DNA of 20,624 nt from a virus. The notes beneath the pieces were generated by a model. It did no database searches. It saw only the letters and a list, made by a program, of their open reading frames with translations, and had not been told where the DNA came from. Where the stretch lies: IMG/VR virus record IMGVR_UViG_3300035670_007445, positions 1-20,624 of that record; one strand, 5' to 3'. Every line of letters starts with the position of its first letter. The stretch's first letter is position 1. Position numbers and translations under genes: made by a program. Shown here in pieces: positions 1,041-17,112 of this stretch.

Positions 1041-1415
1041 ATGGAACTAAACTGGCTAGACGCTGCCATACAAAGAGAGGCAACCCCGAAAGCGTTGAGA
1101 GAAGGAAGTGTTGAAGAGTTTGCTCAAAAATGGGGTATAACAACTCACAAGTACTGGTATGAAATGTCTAAAAAAGAAAGCTGGGCTAAAATACTTGAAA
1201 CATCGCTTAACTCAGTTAAAAAAGCAACACCAGATGTTTTGCTAAAACTTCAAGAAAAGGCTGAAAATGGCGATATGAAAGCAATAGAAATGTATTTAGA
1301 CTATGTATTAAAGCTAGCAAAGAACTTAGATATTAAAACAGACGGTAAACCTTTCCCAATTCTAGGATATGTTTCAAAGAACAACAGCGACGGACAAAAT
1401 ACAAGCGATGAATAA
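1041..1415 (+). CDS. terS: Terminase small subunit (putative)
   Basis: Small terminase subunits bind the packaging site on phage DNA and recruit the large subunit. The 124-residue protein has an N-terminal helical region (residues 20-50, with KWGITTHKYWYEMSK resembling a helix-turn-helix) and a second helical part ending MKAIEMYLDYVLKLAKNLDIKTDG. That is a common end of phBC6A51-type phage TerS proteins. Its position just before TerL supports the call. Its last 95 bases belong to the first copy of a tandem duplication. In the second copy the matching stop is lost and the frame stays open to 1893, so the ancestral TerS may have had a longer tail overlapping TerL. Confidence 0.7.
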   Translation: MELNWLDAAIQREATPKALREGSVEEFAQKWGITTHKYWYEMSKKESWAKILETSLNSVKKATPDVLLKLQEKAENGDMKAIEMYLDYVLKLAKNLDIKTDGKPFPILGYVSKNNSDGQNTSDE

Positions 1416-2063
1416 AAGAATCCGAGCGATAGCTGGGGGAACATCAGCGTCGAAAACAATATCAATACTGTTGTGCTTGATACACCTAGCACAAACGGAC
1501 AAGAAGCCAACGCTAACTAGCATTGTCGCAGAAAGTATTCCGCACTTAAAAAGAGGTGCAATGCGAGATTTCAAAATAATCCTAACAGAACATAACTACT
1601 GGAAAGACGCTTGCTGGAACGCCACAGACTCAATTTACACATTTGAAACAGGAAGCAAGATAGAGTTCTTTTCAACTGACAACGGTGATAAGAACTTAGA
1701 TATTAAAACTGACGGTAAACCATTCCCAATACTAGATTATGCCATTTCAAAGAACAACAGCGACGGACAAAATAATGGCGATGAAGAAAAGGATCAGAGC
1801 GATAGCGGGGGGAACATCAGCGAGCAAGACAATATCAATCCTGCTGTACTTGATACACCTAGCCCAGAGCGACAAGAAACCAACCCTAACTAGCATCGTA
1901 GCAGAAAGTATCCCACACTTAAAGCGTGGCGCAATGCGAGATTTCAAAATGATATTGCTAGAGCATAACTATTGGAAAGATGCTTTATGGAATGCCACCG
2001 ACTCAATCTACACATTTGAGACCGGAAGTAAAATAGAATTCTTTTCAACTGATAACGGCGACA
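1321..2063 (+). repeat. Diverged tandem duplication across the TerS/TerL junction
   Basis: The segment starting AGAACTTAGATATTAAAAC at 1321 recurs at 1691 (AGAACTTAGATATTAAAAC then T). Copy 1 is 1321-1690 and copy 2 is 1691-2063, which has one extra codon near 1743. By hand alignment I count about 55 substitutions, roughly 85% identity. Most are silent in the TerL frame. The breakpoint lies at a shared AAG: the TerL triplet for Lys in copy 2 (GACAAG) corresponds to the TerS AAGAAC start of the unit. The 370-base offset shifts the frame by one. Confidence 0.9.
1369..1893 (+). pseudogene. Truncated TerL N-terminus fused to a TerS tail
   Basis: Residues 1-107 of this open frame repeat the TerL N-terminus, including the Walker A motif GGTSASKT (24-31 in TerL numbering, one less here). 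At the duplication joint (about 1690) the frame passes without a stop into the TerS C-terminal frame (KNLDIKTDGKPFPILDY) and ends at 1893. The product would have an ATP-binding loop but no Walker B and no nuclease, so it cannot work as a terminase alone. It could still matter: its translation would carry ribosomes over the 320-base gap between the TerS stop and the TerL start. It may be a duplication remnant, a chimeric protein, or an assembly error from two strains. Confidence 0.65.
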
Positions 2064-2905
2064 AGTTACGAGGGGCAAGGCGTGAAAGATTATTTATGAA
2101 CGAAGCAAATAATCTAACGCTAGATGCTTTTAACCAATTAGAAGTTCGCACAAAAGATTTTGTGTATTTAGATTGGAACCCCTCAAATGAATTTTGGTTC
2201 TATACCGAATTAAAAGACAAGCGTGATGATGTAGAGTTTATTACCCTAACCTACAAAGACAACGAAGCGTTGAGTGATGAAATAGTAAAAGCAATTGAAC
2301 AGCGTAAGAATAATAAATCGTGGTGGCAAGTGTATGGTTTAGGACAACTCGGTGAAGTGGAAGGAAAGATTTACAAAGACTGGGCGATAGTTGATGAAGT
2401 ACCACACGAAGCTAGGCTAGAAAGGTATGGATTAGACTTCGGCTATTCCAATGATCCAACCGCCATAGTCGCAATTTACAAATACAATGGGGGATTTATC
2501 TTTGACGAAATAACTTTTCTAAAAGGACTAAGCAATAAACAGATAGCGGATATTTTACAAAACAACGAACGAGCCTTGGTTATCGCTGATAGTGCGGAAC
2601 CAAAAAGCATTGATGAGATTAAAAGCTACGGTGTGAATATTGTGCCGGCGGTTAAAGGTCCAGGATCAATTACGCAAGGTATCCAGTATATCCAAGAGCA
2701 AAGATGCTCAATGACAAAACGCAGTGTAAACACAATCAACGAGTATCGCAATTACTTATGGCAGACTGATCGTAACGGCAAGATACAAAATATTCCCGAT
2801 GTCGTCTTTGATCACGCAATGGATGCGATAAGATATGGGCTGTCAAATTATAAACCGCCAATAGTAAATCCTTTCAATAACGATAAACAAAACTTTTTTA
2901 GATAA
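1739..2905 (+). CDS. terL: Terminase large subunit (ATPase-nuclease)
   Basis: This is the DNA-packaging motor and headful or cos nuclease, acting at the portal of the prohead. With the start at 1739 it has 388 residues. The Walker A motif GGTSASKT is at 24-31, a Walker B-like RLFMNEANN at about 117-125 and a coupling-type YLDWNPSN at 143-150. The RNase H-like nuclease carries likely acidic residues D233 (GLDFGYSNDP), D284 (VIADSAEP) and D358/D362 (FDHAMDA). ATG 1775 (MAMKKRIR) is an equally plausible start, since the first 12 residues overlap the TerS-like frame and family members often begin just before the Walker A strand. The 5' part is the second copy of the tandem duplication. The gene ends TAA-T-ATG into the portal gene. 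Confidence 0.93.
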   Translation: MPFQRTTATDKIMAMKKRIRAIAGGTSASKTISILLYLIHLAQSDKKPTLTSIVAESIPHLKRGAMRDFKMILLEHNYWKDALWNATDSIYTFETGSKIEFFSTDNGDKLRGARRERLFMNEANNLTLDAFNQLEVRTKDFVYLDWNPSNEFWFYTELKDKRDDVEFITLTYKDNEALSDEIVKAIEQRKNNKSWWQVYGLGQLGEVEGKIYKDWAIVDEVPHEARLERYGLDFGYSNDPTAIVAIYKYNGGFIFDEITFLKGLSNKQIADILQNNERALVIADSAEPKSIDEIKSYGVNIVPAVKGPGSITQGIQYIQEQRCSMTKRSVNTINEYRNYLWQTDRNGKIQNIPDVVFDHAMDAIRYGLSNYKPPIVNPFNNDKQNFFR

Positions 2906-2906
2906 T

Positions 2907-4607
2907 ATGCTACAAGATGAGAAAATCTGGGAGAAAGTACAAAAGGTAATTGATAGTGCTACCAATGATAGCATTCAACTTATTAACGCTGACAAACAAA
3001 GTCAAGCGCCTTTTTTGTATAACCAGAGAGAATTAGTAAGACGAATTAACTTCTACGTAAATGATCGCTATTTGGAGCGTGATAACAACGCTATATTCTG
3101 GAATATCGCCACGCCTCGCATACCGCATTTTTCGAAATTATTACAATTTGACACGAAAGACTTTTTGCCGATGGGTGAGGGTGAGCTTAATATGGTTCAA
3201 GCGTGGGCGTTAAGAATTAAAGCTCGTGAGTGGTTTAGAGATGAAGGTTTTTATCAGACATTAAACGACTTAGCTATTGGACTAGCTACCTATGGCGGCT
3301 GTGTTTGGAAAGCAGTAAAAGAAGATAAAGAAATGTGCTTAGAAGAGTGCAAGCTCGGTAATCTTTATTTTGATCAAGCGGCTGATGATATCAAAGACAC
3401 TGATGTTGTTGAAATGCACTACCTATCACAAAATGAACTTTTAGAAAAGCGTAGCATTTGGAATAATGTTGATGATATTTTCGGCAAAGAAATGAAAGAT
3501 GGTCGTTATGAGATTTGGGAATACACCGGCATTTTAATTGAAAACCAAGAGCCAGTCTTAAAACACATTATCGGCTATGGATCAGGCGACCAGTACGTAG
3601 AACTTTGGAACGAAGAAATTGACGAAGAGGACAATCCATACGAGTCATTTAGACTTGGCAAATATAACGGTCGCTTTTTAGGCGTTGGTGTTGTAGAAAG
3701 ACTTTTTAAGCTACAAGAACGTGCTAACGAGTTAGTTAACCAGAACGCTGATACTACTCGTATTGCCTCGCTCTTACTCTTCAAGTCCGCTAATATGGAC
3801 TTGACCGGTAATGTTTTAGAGCAAGCGATAAACGGTCAGATTGTGCCAGATGAAACCTTCCAGCAAGTTGGTATCCAAAATACAGGTATCAATTTATTTA
3901 TCCAAGAATTACAACTCATTAACCAGCAAGCTGATAAACTGTGCTTAACTCCTGAAATTATACAAGGTGAACAAGCACCGAGTGGCACAACATTTAGAGG
4001 CTTAGCTGTAATGAACGCCGCCGCAGAAAATGCTTTCACAATTTATCGCCAAAATCTAGGTGAAAAGGTTGGTGATATTTTAATGAAGTGGATATTCCCT
4101 CAAGTTATCAAAGGCTGGAATAAAGAAAGTTTCATTGAAATAAAACAAGATGACGTTGATGTTGAAGCCTATGATAAAGCAGTTATAAATTATATCGCCA
4201 AAGAAAAGATGTTAGGTGGTGAAGTCGTAACGGAAGAGACTTTGACTAAGATCGCCGAAGATTTTCAAAATGAAGTGGGGCGTGTTGGTCGTAAAATTGA
4301 GATTGGTCCTGGATTCTTTGACTTCAAGTTTGGATTCAAATTACAACCGACAAGCGAGACTGGCGATAAAATGGCAATGAACGATGCAATGTATAATGCC
4401 TTACAGATGACCGGTGCTAACCCCGCTTTAACCGAAGTGCCTTTGTTCAAACAATACTGCGAGAATAACGGCATATCATACTGGAAATTAAAACCCAAAC
4501 AGAAAGAAGAGTTAATGGCGATGGCACAAGGACAACAACAAACCGGTGCATTGCCTCCACAAAAGAAGCCAGATGCTTTGTTAGCGTCAGCTCAACCACA
4601 AATGTAA
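2907..4607 (+). CDS. Portal protein
   Basis: Portal proteins form the dodecameric ring at one capsid vertex through which DNA is pumped. I assign this 566-residue protein from its size, its position directly after TerL and before scaffold and coat genes, and family-like features: a mixed alpha/beta first half with the helical clip-like stretch FRLGKYNGRFLGVGVVERLFKLQERANELVNQ near residues 248-280, then QGEQAPSGTTFRGLAVMN around 350-370, which resembles the channel-helix region of podovirus-type portals. The C-terminus is Gln/Pro-rich and low complexity. Both ends use the TAA-T-ATG junction. I cannot tell from sequence whether it belongs to a podovirus- or siphovirus-type head. Confidence 0.85.
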   Translation: MLQDEKIWEKVQKVIDSATNDSIQLINADKQSQAPFLYNQRELVRRINFYVNDRYLERDNNAIFWNIATPRIPHFSKLLQFDTKDFLPMGEGELNMVQAWALRIKAREWFRDEGFYQTLNDLAIGLATYGGCVWKAVKEDKEMCLEECKLGNLYFDQAADDIKDTDVVEMHYLSQNELLEKRSIWNNVDDIFGKEMKDGRYEIWEYTGILIENQEPVLKHIIGYGSGDQYVELWNEEIDEEDNPYESFRLGKYNGRFLGVGVVERLFKLQERANELVNQNADTTRIASLLLFKSANMDLTGNVLEQAINGQIVPDETFQQVGIQNTGINLFIQELQLINQQADKLCLTPEIIQGEQAPSGTTFRGLAVMNAAAENAFTIYRQNLGEKVGDILMKWIFPQVIKGWNKESFIEIKQDDVDVEAYDKAVINYIAKEKMLGGEVVTEETLTKIAEDFQNEVGRVGRKIEIGPGFFDFKFGFKLQPTSETGDKMAMNDAMYNALQMTGANPALTEVPLFKQYCENNGISYWKLKPKQKEELMAMAQGQQQTGALPPQKKPDALLASAQPQM

Positions 4608-8070: not shown

Positions 8071-9150
8071 ATGTATAGCCCGAATGTCTTTATGATCGGA
8101 AGTGGGTATGGCGGTTGTAATAAGGTGCGTATAAACTTACCGGCTGAACACAATGGTTTTCGTATGGCTCAACCGTCACTTAGTGGCGATAGAAGACCAA
8201 CCAATGAGATAAGAGACGAACTCGCAGCCGCTGACGTCGTAGTGTTCCACCGAGCCGAAGAACAGACTTACCACGATTTATCCAAGATGCTTAAAAAAGA
8301 CGGCAAGAAAATAGTAATGGATAATGATGATACTTTTGTCCTTGAAGATAACCACCCATTAGCACAGTTCAACGCCGATGGCACAGTCCAAGATAACCTG
8401 AAAAGACGAAGTGACAATATAGACGAGTTTATGCGGATGTGCGATATGGTAACGACTACGACAAAGACACTCGCCGAAGAATACAAAAAGCATAATAAAA
8501 ATGTAGTGATATTGCCAAACTGTATTGACCCTGATGACTGGGACACACCATTACGAAACGATGGCGACAAAGTGAGAATAGGCATATTCGGCAGTGCCGC
8601 CCTAGAATACGATTACTTGCACTTAAAAGATTATATCCGAGAATTAAGCGAGCGACCTGACATAACAATTTGTATGATGGGCTTAGGTGATAAAGAACAC
8701 CGCCGAAAGAACCCAAAAGTCACACAGGTTTTTCACGAAGAGTACGCTTTCTGGGATAGTATCAAGATTGAACACACAGCTTGGATGCCAGTTCACTTAA
8801 TGCCACAAGCCTTGAATGAAATGCGACTAGACATAATGCTCATACCACGCAAGGACAATTACTTTAACCGGTGCAAATCAAACTTAAAGTTTTTAGAGAG
8901 TGCGATGTGTGAAGTACCAGTGGTGGCTCAATCGTTTACAGATGGCCCTTATGAAGAGATAGAAGACTGGGTAACAGGCGTGCTGATAAAAGACAACAGC
9001 GAGTGGAAAGAAAAGGTTGAAAAGCTGATTAAAAATAAAGAGCTTAGACGACAAATAGGTAAGAACGCCAGAGAGTATGTCATCAAGAATTACGACATCG
9101 CAGACCACGCCTATAAATGGGATGAAGCGTATAAATCACTATTCAAATAA
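8071..9150 (+). CDS. GT-B glycosyltransferase (family 1/4-like)
   Basis: This enzyme should move a sugar from a nucleotide-sugar donor to a glycan or protein in the host cytoplasm. The 359-residue length fits a GT-B enzyme. The C-terminal half carries the donor-binding pattern: KVRIGIFGSAALEYDY (about 168-183), DITICMMGLG, and the PRKDNYFNRCKSNLKFLES stretch (about 262-280), which holds the conserved Glu of GT4-type enzymes, followed by EVPVVAQSFTDGPYEEI and a family-typical end (LRRQIGKNAREYV). The N-terminal half has DADVVVFHRAEEQ-like acceptor-domain features. It opens a run of sugar genes inside the structural operon. Donor and acceptor are unknown. Confidence 0.82.
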   Translation: MYSPNVFMIGSGYGGCNKVRINLPAEHNGFRMAQPSLSGDRRPTNEIRDELAAADVVVFHRAEEQTYHDLSKMLKKDGKKIVMDNDDTFVLEDNHPLAQFNADGTVQDNLKRRSDNIDEFMRMCDMVTTTTKTLAEEYKKHNKNVVILPNCIDPDDWDTPLRNDGDKVRIGIFGSAALEYDYLHLKDYIRELSERPDITICMMGLGDKEHRRKNPKVTQVFHEEYAFWDSIKIEHTAWMPVHLMPQALNEMRLDIMLIPRKDNYFNRCKSNLKFLESAMCEVPVVAQSFTDGPYEEIEDWVTGVLIKDNSEWKEKVEKLIKNKELRRQIGKNAREYVIKNYDIADHAYKWDEAYKSLFK

Positions 9151-9151
9151 T

Positions 9152-9463
9152 ATGTTAGTCGAAATAAAAGATAAAAAGTTAGAAGGAATTTTAAGCGAAC
9201 GGGCTGTATATCACAAAGAGGTCGGCGAAATAATGGAAAAGATGATGGCCCTTGATAAAGAAAAAACCAAGCTCGCCTATAAGTTAGACAAGCTCAAAGA
9301 AAAGACCAAAGTAATAATGGATAAATTAAATCCAAAGCTAGAAGAGTTTGAGTTTATCTCACGGGTATTTATGGAAAAAGGTGTCGCTTATTACGAGGTG
9401 CTAGATCAGATTGAAGAGTATAAAAAAGCAATTAGAGAAGATAGAGTCAATAAATTGAAATAA
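9152..9463 (+). CDS. Coiled-coil hypothetical protein (103 aa)
   Basis: Residues 15-65 form a long, highly charged heptad-like helix (KEVGEIMEKMMALDKEKTK, then KLAYKLDKLKEKTKVIMDKL). A second helix runs through the C-terminus. No catalytic or membrane motif is seen. The start is ATG 9152, in the TAA-T-ATG junction after the glycosyltransferase. An upstream in-frame ATG at 9077 lies inside that gene. It might be a structural or scaffold-like partner. The role is unknown. Confidence 0.65.
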   Translation: MLVEIKDKKLEGILSERAVYHKEVGEIMEKMMALDKEKTKLAYKLDKLKEKTKVIMDKLNPKLEEFEFISRVFMEKGVAYYEVLDQIEEYKKAIREDRVNKLK

Positions 9464-9464
9464 T

Positions 9465-9878
9465 ATGCGAGTCGTTTTAACCGCCGCTGTAATGGACCTT
9501 TGCCACGAAGGGCATATACGTCTGCTAAAAGAGATGCGAGCCAATGGCGATATTGTGGTGGTGGTTTTACACGACGATAAAAGCGTATATGAAATAAAAG
9601 GAAAGATACCGGTTCAAGATGTTTTACATAGGATGAACAATCTGCATATTACAGGCTTAGTGGATAGGGTGCTAGTTACGATGAACGTTGATCCAGCTGA
9701 TAAGTTCCAAGAGGTAATAAGCACCTATGGAGAAAAGAATATCCTGTTTATGCGAGCAGATGATAATAAGAACTTTCCAGGTAAATGGATAATTGAAAAC
9801 TATAACATACCAATTAAGTATGTTAAATATACCAAAGGCGTGAGCAGTAGCTTAATCAGAAAGAAATTATGCAAATAG
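9465..9878 (+). CDS. Cytidylyltransferase-like nucleotidyltransferase
   Basis: Enzymes of this fold activate a phosphorylated polyol or choline with CTP (TagD/GCT, PCT), or a sugar phosphate with ATP (RfaE). The 137 residues match a minimal single domain. HEGH at residues 14-17 is the HxGH nucleotide-binding signature. An IVVVVLHDDKSVYEIKG stretch (30-46) follows, and SSSLIRKKL near the C-terminus is a variant of the ISTTxIR motif. GKIPVQD fits the GRxP-type substrate loop. Lying five genes-lengths from a LicD-like transferase, it probably supplies CDP-linked donor to it. The precise substrate cannot be read from the sequence. The last ten bases overlap the next gene. Confidence 0.8.
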   Translation: MRVVLTAAVMDLCHEGHIRLLKEMRANGDIVVVVLHDDKSVYEIKGKIPVQDVLHRMNNLHITGLVDRVLVTMNVDPADKFQEVISTYGEKNILFMRADDNKNFPGKWIIENYNIPIKYVKYTKGVSSSLIRKKLCK

Positions 9879-10168
9879 TATTCCTACTATTTCTACACCA
9901 CTTAGCCGATGTCGCTTTGCAACCAAGCTGGCTCATAAAGCAAAAGTATCATTGGTTCAGAGTGTACGAGCATTCGTTTATCTGGGCAGGGGTGATTTCA
10001 ATGGGGTTGTACTGGCTAGATAATTTCAGTCTTTGGAAGTTCATTTTTCTACTTGTCGGACATTTCGTAATTGATTTTATTAAGTATAAGCACAAGCAAT
10101 TCTGGCTTGTTTATCCCGATCAGTTTTTACACTATATACAAGTTTTAATAGTATGGACCATAAAGTAG
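9869..10168 (+). CDS. DUF3307-like membrane protein (99 aa)
   Basis: Three hydrophobic segments are visible, at about residues 3-12, 35-52 and 57-70, and a fourth near 85-97. Conserved-looking polar residues fit DUF3307: HHLADVALQPSW (10-21), GHFVIDFIKYK (64-74) and the late DQFLH. DUF3307 has no established biochemical function. In this island it could anchor or supply the sugar-modifying enzymes at the membrane, which is inference. The start overlaps the end of the cytidylyltransferase gene by ten bases, and its own end overlaps the LicD-like gene by 16, so the three genes are translationally coupled. Confidence 0.7.
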   Translation: MQIVFLLFLHHLADVALQPSWLIKQKYHWFRVYEHSFIWAGVISMGLYWLDNFSLWKFIFLLVGHFVIDFIKYKHKQFWLVYPDQFLHYIQVLIVWTIK

Positions 10169-10689
10169 CCCTAGAAAACCTAAAAGATATACGGGACGTG
10201 CTAAACCAGTATCCAGTAAAGTGGTGGCTAGACGGTGGCACTTGTATCGGAGCGGTTAGAGAAAAAGATTTTGTCGCTATTGATGAAGATACTGATATTG
10301 GGGTGCTAGAAGAGACTTATAACGACGAGATTACACAAAAGATTTTAGATAAAGGTTTTCACCTAGAAGCAAAATACGGTACAAGAGATAAAGGCTACGA
10401 ATTAGCTTTTGTGAGAAATGGAGTTAAGACAGATATATTTTTCTACTACTTGAAAGACGGTAAAAGGTGGTACGCGATGTACGCCGACAAGATGATCCCA
10501 ATGGTTTATCCGGCAGACACTTTTGAAGAGCAAATGGACATAGATTTTCTAGGGCATACTTTCAAAATACCAGTTAAATACGACCAGTACCTAACGATAA
10601 AGTATGGTGACTATATGACCAAGATTAAGCGTGAAGATTGGGACTGGACAACCGGACCGAAAAATATAGATATGAGTTTTATAAAGTGA
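10153..10689 (+). CDS. LicD-like phosphotransferase
   Basis: LicD family proteins transfer phosphocholine, or polyol phosphate in related forms, from a CDP donor onto a sugar. Residues 24-50 contain the hallmark WWLDGGTCIGAVREKDF and then DEDTDIGV, matching the family LDGGTLLGAxRxxxfIPWDDDxDI pattern with its metal-binding acidic cluster. KTDIFFYYLKDG (about 94-105) and the late LTIKYGDYM also fit. The usual length is 250 or more residues, and 178 is compact. With the cytidylyltransferase just upstream, activation and transfer steps are both encoded. The target glycan is unknown. The gene ends TGA-T-ATG into the next transferase. Confidence 0.82.
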   Translation: MDHKVALENLKDIRDVLNQYPVKWWLDGGTCIGAVREKDFVAIDEDTDIGVLEETYNDEITQKILDKGFHLEAKYGTRDKGYELAFVRNGVKTDIFFYYLKDGKRWYAMYADKMIPMVYPADTFEEQMDIDFLGHTFKIPVKYDQYLTIKYGDYMTKIKREDWDWTTGPKNIDMSFIK

Positions 10690-10690
10690 T

Positions 10691-11332
10691 ATGGACATCA
10701 CAATACTGATAAAGACGTTCAAAAGGCCACGAATGCTAGACCGATTACTGACTAGCATAAAAGAATACGCCCCAGATATTAAAATAGACGTACTAGACGA
10801 TAGCGATACTAACATAGGTATATCAGCAGGACGCAATCAGTTAGTCGCTAGGTGCAAAACAAAATACTGTATGATACTGGATGATGATTGTATATTCACG
10901 CCAAAGACGAACCTCGAAAAAGCGATTAAAATATTAGAAGAAAGAGATTTAGACCTATTGGAAATACAAGTGCCAGGTTTGAATTATAGAGGACATTTTA
11001 AGATAAAAAACGACGAGATAGAAGCTGTTCAAGCAAACGAAGGAGAATATTTTGATTTTATAACTAACATATTCGTTGCTAAGACTGATGTTTTAAGAAA
11101 ATATAAATGGGATGACAGGATGAAGATTGGAGAGCATACATCATACTTTTTTACGCATAGGGGTAAAATGAAAATAGGAACGACGGACCAAGTAACAATA
11201 AGGCACGAACACGTTAGCCCGCCTGGATATAATATCTACCGAAGCAGAGGCGAGGATTATGTAAAGATTTTTATGCGAGAAAATGGCATTAAAAGACTCC
11301 ATACCGTAACAGGTGAATACATAGTAGTATGA
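10691..11332 (+). CDS. Glycosyltransferase resembling beta-1,4-GalNAc transferases
   Basis: The 213-residue protein has a GT-A layout. An N-terminal strand (ITILIKTFKRP) is followed by AGRNQLVARCKTKYCMILDDD, with the metal-binding DDD at residues 64-66. The arrangement, then FDFITNIFVAKTDVLRKY and TTDQVTIRHEH near the end, recalls animal beta-1,4-N-acetylgalactosaminyltransferases of family GT12, as I remember their RN...DDDF...ARTD...H pattern. That likeness is from memory and needs a profile search. A general GT2 enzyme is the fallback. The ATGA overlap (11329-11332) couples it to the deacetylase. Confidence 0.72.
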   Translation: MDITILIKTFKRPRMLDRLLTSIKEYAPDIKIDVLDDSDTNIGISAGRNQLVARCKTKYCMILDDDCIFTPKTNLEKAIKILEERDLDLLEIQVPGLNYRGHFKIKNDEIEAVQANEGEYFDFITNIFVAKTDVLRKYKWDDRMKIGEHTSYFFTHRGKMKIGTTDQVTIRHEHVSPPGYNIYRSRGEDYVKIFMRENGIKRLHTVTGEYIVV

Positions 11333-11940
11333 TTTTCCGCAATGATGACCTAGCCTATGGGGTGGATATAGAACAATACAAAGAAATACAGTCAATTTTT
11401 GAAGGATTTGGGGTAAAAGAGATGTATTCGGTGGTCGCAATAGGTGGTAATTTATACGCTGGCGACCCATTTACAATGGCAAACAACGATTTAGAAAGGT
11501 TTTTAGGCACAAAGTTAGTATATGAAGACGAAAAAGTTGATGAGTTTATTAAAAATAGCCTAGCAAAAGGTCACACAATATCGTTACACGGTTGGCAACA
11601 CACTAAAATAGCTAAATATTCGTATAAAGACCAGCTAGACAATATAAGTAGTGCTAAAAAGTTGCTAGAAGATAGGTATAAAGTAGAAATAAAGTATTTT
11701 GTGCCACCATTTAACAATTACAATAGCGCAACCCAAGAAGCGTGTAGCAAACTGGGGCTTAAAATACTAGGCACAAGTGAAAATCAGTTAGAAAGAGCGG
11801 TTAGAGAAGACTTGAAATTACCGGATAATGATTTTACTTGGTATCACGCTTGGCGGTTTTATCAAAATGGCTTAACCCCTGAAAAATTGAAAGATTATCT
11901 AACAAAGTATGATATCAATAATAATTCCAATTTGGGGTGA
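11329..11940 (+). CDS. Polysaccharide deacetylase (NodB-like)
   Basis: Polysaccharide deacetylases remove N- or O-acetyl groups from sugars using a metal held by Asp-His-His. Here N5-D6-D7 (FRNDD) supplies the first aspartates, and ISLHGWQH gives H87 and H91 in the HxxxH spacing. FVPPFNNYN resembles the RPPF-type motif 3, and YHAWRF near residue 174 is a fitting late histidine motif. At 203 residues it is a bare catalytic domain with no signal peptide, so it would act in the cytoplasm, probably on sugar intermediates of the island. It overlaps its neighbours at both ends: ATGA upstream, and 32 bases with the GT2 gene downstream. Confidence 0.78.
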   Translation: MIFRNDDLAYGVDIEQYKEIQSIFEGFGVKEMYSVVAIGGNLYAGDPFTMANNDLERFLGTKLVYEDEKVDEFIKNSLAKGHTISLHGWQHTKIAKYSYKDQLDNISSAKKLLEDRYKVEIKYFVPPFNNYNSATQEACSKLGLKILGTSENQLERAVREDLKLPDNDFTWYHAWRFYQNGLTPEKLKDYLTKYDINNNSNLG

Positions 11941-12490
11941 TAAATATAAAGAGTTTTTACCAAAAGCAATTGCGAGTATTGAATCCCAGACATATAAAGA
12001 TTATGAGATTATTATATCGGATCAAGCGACTGACCTACCAACTGCCCGTAATCAAGGGATAAAAAAAGCTAAGGGTGAGTATATTCTGTGTTTAGATGCT
12101 GATGACCAATTACACCCAGAGTTTTTAGAAAAAACACTTAAAGCAAACGATGATATAGTCGGGACTTGGTGGAAAGAGTATGGGGACTACGAAAGTGAGA
12201 TTAAAACACCAGAGTTACACCCCAAATTGCCGCACTTTTTAGACTATAATCGTATAACTTGTACAGCACTTTACAAAAAAGAAGTCTGGGAAACAGTGGA
12301 AGGATATGACGAAACAATGAAAGACGGGCTAGAAGATTGGGATTTCTGGTGTCAAGCCTTAAAAGCTGGTTATACGGTAACGATTGTCCCTGAAATACTA
12401 TTCTTTTACTGGAAGCACGGAAACACAATGATTGAAAGTAATCGCCAAAATCACTTAAAGATTTATAACTACATAAAAAGCAAATTATAA
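11909..12490 (+). CDS. GT2-type glycosyltransferase
   Basis: This is a GT-A enzyme of the GT2 superfamily. The N-terminal ISIIIPIWG strand, SIESQTYKDYEIIISDQ (nucleotide-binding half) and ARNQGIKKAKGEYILCLDADD (DADD at 63-66) are textbook features. The late EDWDFWCQAL at about 142-151 is the catalytic ED/W region. Its length (193 residues) is short but complete for a single-domain enzyme. The start lies inside the deacetylase gene, 32 bases before its end, so the two are coupled. It ends TAA-T-ATG into the adaptor gene, which marks the return to virion genes. Confidence 0.85.
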   Translation: MISIIIPIWGDKYKEFLPKAIASIESQTYKDYEIIISDQATDLPTARNQGIKKAKGEYILCLDADDQLHPEFLEKTLKANDDIVGTWWKEYGDYESEIKTPELHPKLPHFLDYNRITCTALYKKEVWETVEGYDETMKDGLEDWDFWCQALKAGYTVTIVPEILFFYWKHGNTMIESNRQNHLKIYNYIKSKL

Positions 12491-12491
12491 T

Positions 12492-13208
12492 ATGGTTTAT
12501 TCAGATACAACTAACCTAGTCGGAATTATCCAAGAAGAAGAACGCTTGACTGGTTTAGGATATGCCGCTATTTCTGGTTCGACAACCAACTTAAAAGAGT
12601 TCACCTCACTAAATAACATTGTCAGTCACCGCATTTGGCACACTATTTTTACTTCCAATGGGAATTGGCAGTATGATGACTCGAATAAAAGTGATTTGCC
12701 TGCTGGTGCGACTAGCTTAGTAAGTGGGACAGCAACTTATGCTTTGCCGACAGATGCATTAACTGTAAAACGAATTGAAGTAAAAGACGCTAATGGTGAA
12801 TGGAGTGTTTTAACTCCTATTACTCTTGAAGAAATAGACGCTAAAGCAGAAACTTTAACCGATCAAGGCACACCACGTTTTTATCGGTTAATTGGCCAAA
12901 CAATTGAGCTATTTCCTACCCCAAACTACGCATCATCTGGCGGTTTGAAACCTTATTTTGACCGTGATTGTGTAGAATTTGCGACAACCGACACGACAAA
13001 AACACCTGGTTTTGCTTCACCTTATCACAGCATTATCGCTCTGGGTGGTGCTATGGAGTGGTTAAAAGTACACACGCCAACGAGCGCGCAACTACAATAT
13101 CTACGAGAAGACTACGCTAAAATGGAAAAAAACCTGAAAGAATTTTATGGTATGCGTTTTAAGGCAAAAAAACCAATGGTAGGGCGTGCTTATTCATCAT
13201 ATAAATAA
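12492..13208 (+). CDS. Head-tail adaptor-like protein (putative)
   Basis: I assign this 238-residue protein by position and character, with moderate confidence. The first part (MVYSDTTNLVGIIQEEERLTG) and the helical C-terminus (YLREDYAKMEKNLKEFYG, then a basic, Tyr-rich end) resemble phage adaptor or tail-tubular-type proteins. The middle has alternating strand-like stretches (YALPTDALTVKRIEVKD, then FYRLIGQTIELFPTP), as in gp4-like adaptors. Such proteins extend the portal ring and hold the DNA. The gene lies between the sugar island and the tail genes and ends three bases before the next micro-gene. Confidence 0.55.
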   Translation: MVYSDTTNLVGIIQEEERLTGLGYAAISGSTTNLKEFTSLNNIVSHRIWHTIFTSNGNWQYDDSNKSDLPAGATSLVSGTATYALPTDALTVKRIEVKDANGEWSVLTPITLEEIDAKAETLTDQGTPRFYRLIGQTIELFPTPNYASSGGLKPYFDRDCVEFATTDTTKTPGFASPYHSIIALGGAMEWLKVHTPTSAQLQYLREDYAKMEKNLKEFYGMRFKAKKPMVGRAYSSYK

Positions 13209-13211
13209 AAT

Positions 13212-13340
13212 ATGTGGCTTAAACAACTATTTTGTATCCATAATTGGAAATTTTGGATGACCGGCGTAGATGAAGAGAAGGGCGCGGAGTGGGAAATATA
13301 CAAGTGTACAAAATGTGGAAAAGTCCGAGATATAATTTAA
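13212..13340 (+). CDS. Zinc-binding microprotein (42 aa)
   Basis: A 42-codon gene too short for most callers. It has a plausible zinc site made of CIH at residues 8-10 and CTKC at 32-35, with Trp residues around the first site (WLKQLFCIHNWKFW). The length and final CTKCGKVRDII recall a tiny zinc ribbon. It begins three bases after the adaptor stop, in an AAATATG context, and ends in the exact TAA-T-ATG junction, which supports it as a real gene. The role is unknown. Confidence 0.6.
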   Translation: MWLKQLFCIHNWKFWMTGVDEEKGAEWEIYKCTKCGKVRDII

Positions 13341-13341
13341 T

Positions 13342-13518
13342 ATGGCCTATACAAACGACACAAAACCAAGTGCGGCAACCTATTCTAACGATACCAAGCC
13401 TAGTGTCGCCAATGAGTTTTTATTAAAAGAGGATGCTTTCTACCTACTTTTAGAAAGCGGCAGTAAGATAGTCATTAACTACGGTATAAATTACTCATAC
13501 GATACAAAACCATCATAG
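13342..13518 (+). CDS. Repeat-bearing minor protein (58 aa)
   Basis: The protein carries three copies of a short motif: NDTKPS at residues 5-10 and 16-21, and YDTKPS at 53-58. A hydrophobic middle (FYLLLESGSKIVINYGI) separates the last two. Similar DxKPS repeats are found in small phage tail-associated proteins (recalled, not searched). It is held by TAA-T-ATG upstream and TAG-T-ATG downstream, so it is almost certainly translated. It may be a minor structural or fibre-attachment peptide. Confidence 0.6.
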   Translation: MAYTNDTKPSAATYSNDTKPSVANEFLLKEDAFYLLLESGSKIVINYGINYSYDTKPS

Positions 13519-13519
13519 T

Positions 13520-17112
<3,593 letters not shown>

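Follow-up and report, generated by a model that had tools for sequence, protein, structure and literature searches.

A diverged tandem duplication across the TerS/TerL overlap of an uncultivated tailed-phage contig, most simply a junction of two related genomes

Red recombines sequences that are 22% diverged efficiently in phages (PMC2327257). Phage T4 shows gene amplification that depends on TerS and is located around the terS 3' end (PMC3012670, PMC9958956). T4 is a precedent for TerS-dependent recombination near the terS 3' end, and either it or Red may have a bearing on the joint described below. Joined sequences can also be artificial, and in simulated viromes chimeric contigs made up <5% of the contigs of at least 10 kb (PMC5610896). 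A literature search for terminase duplications with microhomology, or for partial ones, found none.

The window analyzed here is the whole of an IMG/VR record, a 20,624-base contig of an uncultivated virus that is a tailed phage. It encodes a tailed-phage structural module comprising TerS, TerL, a portal-like head-tail protein, a capsid protein of the Phage_capsid_2 kind and an SU10-type adaptor. The same module includes a collagen-like tail protein, and several genes appear by eye to be glycosyltransferase-like. Between the capsid and tail genes (8071-14599) lies a run of genes that are, again by eye, glycosyltransferase-, nucleotidyltransferase- and polysaccharide deacetylase-like; the first gene of this run is common to relatives, and the middle genes mostly are not. 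The left contig end (1-115) carries two 38-nt copies that are 95% alike with starts 77 nt apart, each forming a hairpin of GGGGTGGGG and CCCCACCCC. Shine-Dalgarno sequences were not recognizable at the starts at 1041, 1369, 1739, 2907 and 6065, and the host group may be one that does not use them. Structured RNA and tRNA, looked for in the window as an alternative, were not found. The nearest isolate matches to the TerL are Flavobacterium phages, at 43% identity.

At the overlap of the two terminase genes, the following features were located:

1041-1415, plus strand: TerS version A, complete, 124 amino acids; an open reading frame whose homologues adjoin TerL in relatives
1320-1689, plus strand: copy 1 of a direct repeat, 370 nt, holding the 3' end of terS-A and the first 107 codons of terL-A
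1369-1893, plus strand: chimeric open reading frame of 174 codons, TerL-A residues 1-107 fused in frame to the TerS-B tail
1690-1692, plus strand: A/B joint at a shared AAG, placed from the sequence, with parental flanks predicted from relatives
1690-2062, plus strand: copy 2 of the direct repeat, 373 nt, holding the 3' tail of terS-B and the first 108 codons of terL-B
1739-2905, plus strand: TerL version B, complete, 388 amino acids; an open reading frame with Pfam matches

Alignment and self-BLAST both confirmed the two head-to-tail copies of about 370 bases and about 85% identity that the original prediction had described. Copies 1 and 2 are identical in 315 of 373 alignment columns, with 55 mismatches, one 3-nt indel and abrupt ends, and self-BLAST of the window gave 84.6% over 376 nt, far above chance; no other such repeat pair is found in the window. 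The predicted span of 1321-2063 was roughly right in location, with the start off by one (1320) and the end one base too far (2062). The triplet AAG is found at 1320-1322, 1690-1692 and 2063-2065. The longest exact run common to both copies is 30 nt and the contig contains no Ns; a genuine duplication like this one should therefore pose no difficulty for assembly.

TerL-B matches both Terminase_3 (PF04466, E=6.6e-11) and Terminase_3C (PF17288, E=7.8e-15) above the Pfam cutoffs. The locus has the makeup of a terminase operon, in which TerL has ATPase and RNase H-like nuclease domains and TerS lies upstream and overlaps it. TerS-A has one weak PHROG match, of unknown function, and no match in Pfam; its homologues, 40-49% identical, stand directly upstream of TerL or overlap it in L013, L056, L068, L078, L086 and L087. 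Nearly all relative loci that extend far enough upstream have a TerS that overlaps the TerL start. The overlap usually ends 29-59 nt past that start, as it does in copy 1, so the 124-residue TerS-A is of normal length and is not the shortened TerS that had been proposed. A longer TerS/TerL overlap of 155 nt occurs in L030 and L033, which makes the longer TerS frame of copy 2 (to 1893) a natural variant as well. The 174-codon TerL-TerS chimera, also predicted, is present as an open reading frame; its TerL-A part includes the Walker A-like GGTSASKT, and as a whole it has no match in Pfam or PHROG. TerL does not begin after the chimera, as had been claimed, since its start lies within that frame and the two overlap by 155 nt.

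The two copies are adjacent yet differ in the TerL frame by dN 0.06 and dS 0.88, which fits two histories, and an old in-place divergence could give the same values. Outside the gene overlap, dN is 0.054 and dS is 1.107. Most changes are silent in the TerL frame, as predicted: the 94 codons beginning at 1408 include 34 that differ synonymously and 6 that differ nonsynonymously, with 6, 5 and 36 substitutions at the first, second and third codon positions. Third positions hold 35 of the 46 changes outside the gene overlap (p=4e-9). In the same stretch there are 5 amino acid differences, as against a mean of about 30 and a minimum of 21 in 5000 draws in which the same changes were placed at random. 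Both the dN/dS and the third-position bias bear out the view that the divergence built up under TerL selection, which excludes a fresh duplication in decay. The 30-nt identical run sits in a stretch that codes in both frames, as it should if each version had served as a functional terS-terL overlap prior to the joining.

Copy 1 is now without a complete terL and copy 2 without a complete terS, so selection most simply predates the joint. By this argument both versions would have been long resident in working terS-terL pairs, and the joint would be young. There is one escape from selection before the joint, which is that the chimeric frame, reading copy 1 in the TerL frame, was itself selected. 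Polarized amino acid differences give a branch of 0.12 for copy 1 and 0 for copy 2, and copy 1 has a Cys where relatives nearly all have an aromatic residue. This hints at more amino acid changes on copy 1, at polarizable sites too few to claim relaxed constraint.

A TerL search of IMG/VR returned 256 related stretches, the best at 79% amino acid identity, and the set of relatives consisted of 80 related TerL loci from IMG/VR, raised to 178 by later scans. In a tree of the N-terminal domain with 64 relatives, copies 1 and 2 are sisters (support 100/98). The copies are each other's closest relatives, so A and B would be close kin, nearer to each other than to any relative found; the tree shows only this sisterhood, and assignment of the copies to different parents is impossible from it. 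Neither an A nor a B parent was found in IMG/VR, GTDB (one genome per species) or GenBank phages, where coverage of these phages is thin and very near records were perhaps left out, so that this absence weighs little, and relatives sought through TerS, portal, capsid, GTDB genomes and GenBank phages included none close enough to separate A from B. The joint is absent from other IMG/VR contigs as an exact or a degenerate pattern, and no other IMG/VR contig matches 25 nt common to both copies.

The 133 non-redundant related loci (1.34 Mb) contain no comparable two-copy diverged tandem duplication. Their self-repeats of at least 100 nt are short-period overlapping arrays, one spaced pair (L032) and one pair in L083 (123 nt, period 108 nt). 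The duplication is thus no regular feature of such phages and, to judge from these loci, is rare, whether viewed as a habit of the phages or of assembly. Nor does any of the 160 loci with a detectable TerL N-terminal domain hold a true second copy of it; two hits were found only in L093, where they are a TerL split by an intein-like insert and not a duplicate.

Several relatives carry rearrangements or inserts within the terminase genes. In L086 and L087, a TerS 49% identical to that of the window precedes a TerL whose nuclease half is 70% identical to that of the window TerL (residues 213-390 against 201-377 of the latter). The ATPase half of this TerL has no significant similarity to its window counterpart, although Pfam places the two halves in the same two families as those of the window TerL. 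The region L087:1694-3233, with the matching region in L086, is an apparent domain swap inside TerL. On the evidence of this seemingly foreign ATPase domain, the lineage is one that shuffles TerL and recombines within its terminase module. An intein near the TerL end is found in L030, L033 and L089 (Pfam Intein_splicing for L033), of which L033 and L089 are the same contig. L033:1330-3321 encodes a 663-aa TerL with the intein near its C-terminal end, L030 is similar, and an open reading frame at 2688-3200 inside the L033 intein, in another frame, is HNH-like by eye. L093:563-2812 encodes a 749-aa TerL in which the intein-like insert, as read from the translation, sits precisely within the Walker A loop (GG / TSASKT).

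The simplest account is an end-to-end union of segments from two related phages that are about 85% identical in the duplicated region, formed naturally or as the contig was produced. The predicted continuation of A is AAGTTA, which agrees with copy 2 at 2063 and with L013; the predicted lead-in of B is (G)CAAAG, and the B parent is predicted to have carried a B-type TerS leading into AAGAACTTAGATATTAAAACT. The original prediction had invoked either illegitimate recombination at AAG or a chimeric assembly. The joining of two related phages or strains does explain the pattern, and the AAG is only consistent with it: 6% of joints placed at random in the window have at least three bases in common, so the microhomology is weak evidence. 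As 57% of random 370-nt duplications in the window would also leave all genes intact, gene intactness is likewise weak support for a recombinant. A predicted hairpin (-12.8 kcal/mol) at 1660-1720 spans the joint, its 3' arm AAGAACTT coming from the B side, and may be due to chance.

We regard a real A x B recombinant, in which TerS-A and TerL-B were kept intact, as the best reading of the locus, and incline modestly toward accepting it. The duplication, its divergence pattern, the intact reading frames and the in-frame fusion are observed, and two parents, a recent joining and existence in a living phage are what we infer here. The event would have been a recent, unequal, non-homologous (microhomology) exchange between two kindred tailed phages, about 85% identical at this locus. 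The recombination within the terminase module of L086 and L087 speaks for this reading. The left end to base 1689, with the whole of TerS-A and the first 107 codons of TerL-A, would derive from phage A, and everything from 1690 onward, with the TerS-B tail and the whole of TerL-B, from phage B. B would have been broken near the terS 3' end and joined to A inside terL at the AAG. Its entry point would lie about 370 nt upstream of where the A sequence was left, which would account for the overlap region being present twice. The recombinant would thereby retain an undamaged TerS from A and an undamaged TerL from B. The fusion of 174 codons would be a by-product that, being in frame, may allow TerL-B to stay translationally coupled to the genes before it: TerL-A runs into TerS-B without a stop, so ribosomes could travel from TerS across the fusion and reach the start of TerL-B. 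That start lies within the fusion frame much as the terL starts of relatives lie inside terS.

The main rival, to which we give sizeable but minority credence, is a chimeric contig, in which co-occurring A and B were joined in amplification, library preparation or assembly and the joined genome would have no real existence. Chimeras are a known minority class among virome contigs (PMC5610896). The joint is known from one uncultivated contig in a single metagenome record, is unique in IMG/VR and has no counterpart in the 133 loci; its position 1.69 kb from the left contig end is where the edge of a wrongly attached short end piece would be expected. These points, together with the failure to find either parent (best TerL 79% amino acid identity), count against a natural recombinant. 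On the other side, the joint shares only 3 nt and the contig has no Ns. With so short an overlap, a k-mer assembler would need a chimeric read to bridge the joint. Random ligation would rarely place homologous loci in register, 370 nt apart and on the same strand. The intactness of both genes and the in-frame fusion are each weak evidence, and all of these features speak for the natural recombinant.

An old in-place duplication, with the fused TerL-N/TerS-tail frame kept by selection and copy 1 diverging silently, is improbable. Because the chimeric frame reads copy 1 in the TerL frame, selection on the chimera would also yield silent changes, and the copies are indeed mutually nearest relatives; however, the repeat would have had to persist to a dS of about 0.9 without recombinational loss, it is carried by 0 of the 160 loci with a detectable TerL N-terminal domain, and the chimera is without the rest of the ATPase domain and the nuclease and matches no known family (Pfam, PHROG). 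That such an old duplication yielded a 174-residue fusion selected as a protein, for instance as a regulator or competitor of the packaging motor, is an option that the original prediction overlooked, and we consider it very unlikely. A fresh local duplication left to decay would account for the tandem arrangement and abutting ends, and can be dismissed on the 15% divergence, the strong purifying selection in both versions and the synonymous bias of the substitutions.

If real, the locus would preserve phage mosaicism at an intermediate stage, in which an exchange out of register is caught before loss of the extra copy and TerS and TerL of different parents must cooperate. If the contig is chimeric, sharp-ended diverged tandem copies could serve to flag suspect records in virus catalogues. 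In neither case is a new molecular system required, and the locus is a curiosity.

Compared with described systems, the window resembles phage mosaicism (PMC2327257) in presenting a novel joint of two related genomes with essential genes still usable. The mosaicism events are exchanges within aligned diverged sequence, whereas the joint in the window is 370 nt out of register, with a partial tandem duplication and a fused reading frame as its outcome. The T4 gene 17 (terL) amplification of Hp17 mutants (Wu and Black, cited in PMC3012670 and PMC9958956) is alike in being a terminase duplication that ends in the 3' part of terS. As described there, it involves short homology and TerS action at a pac-like site, and the window agrees only in the terS 3' location; the T4 case was lab-selected, with putative sites in g16 and g19, while the copies in the window are 15% diverged, partial and known from sequence alone. 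Virome chimeric contigs (PMC5610896) likewise bring two related genomes into one contig; the joint in the window, in contrast, has just 3 nt in common between its two sides and produces a tandem duplication that is in register.
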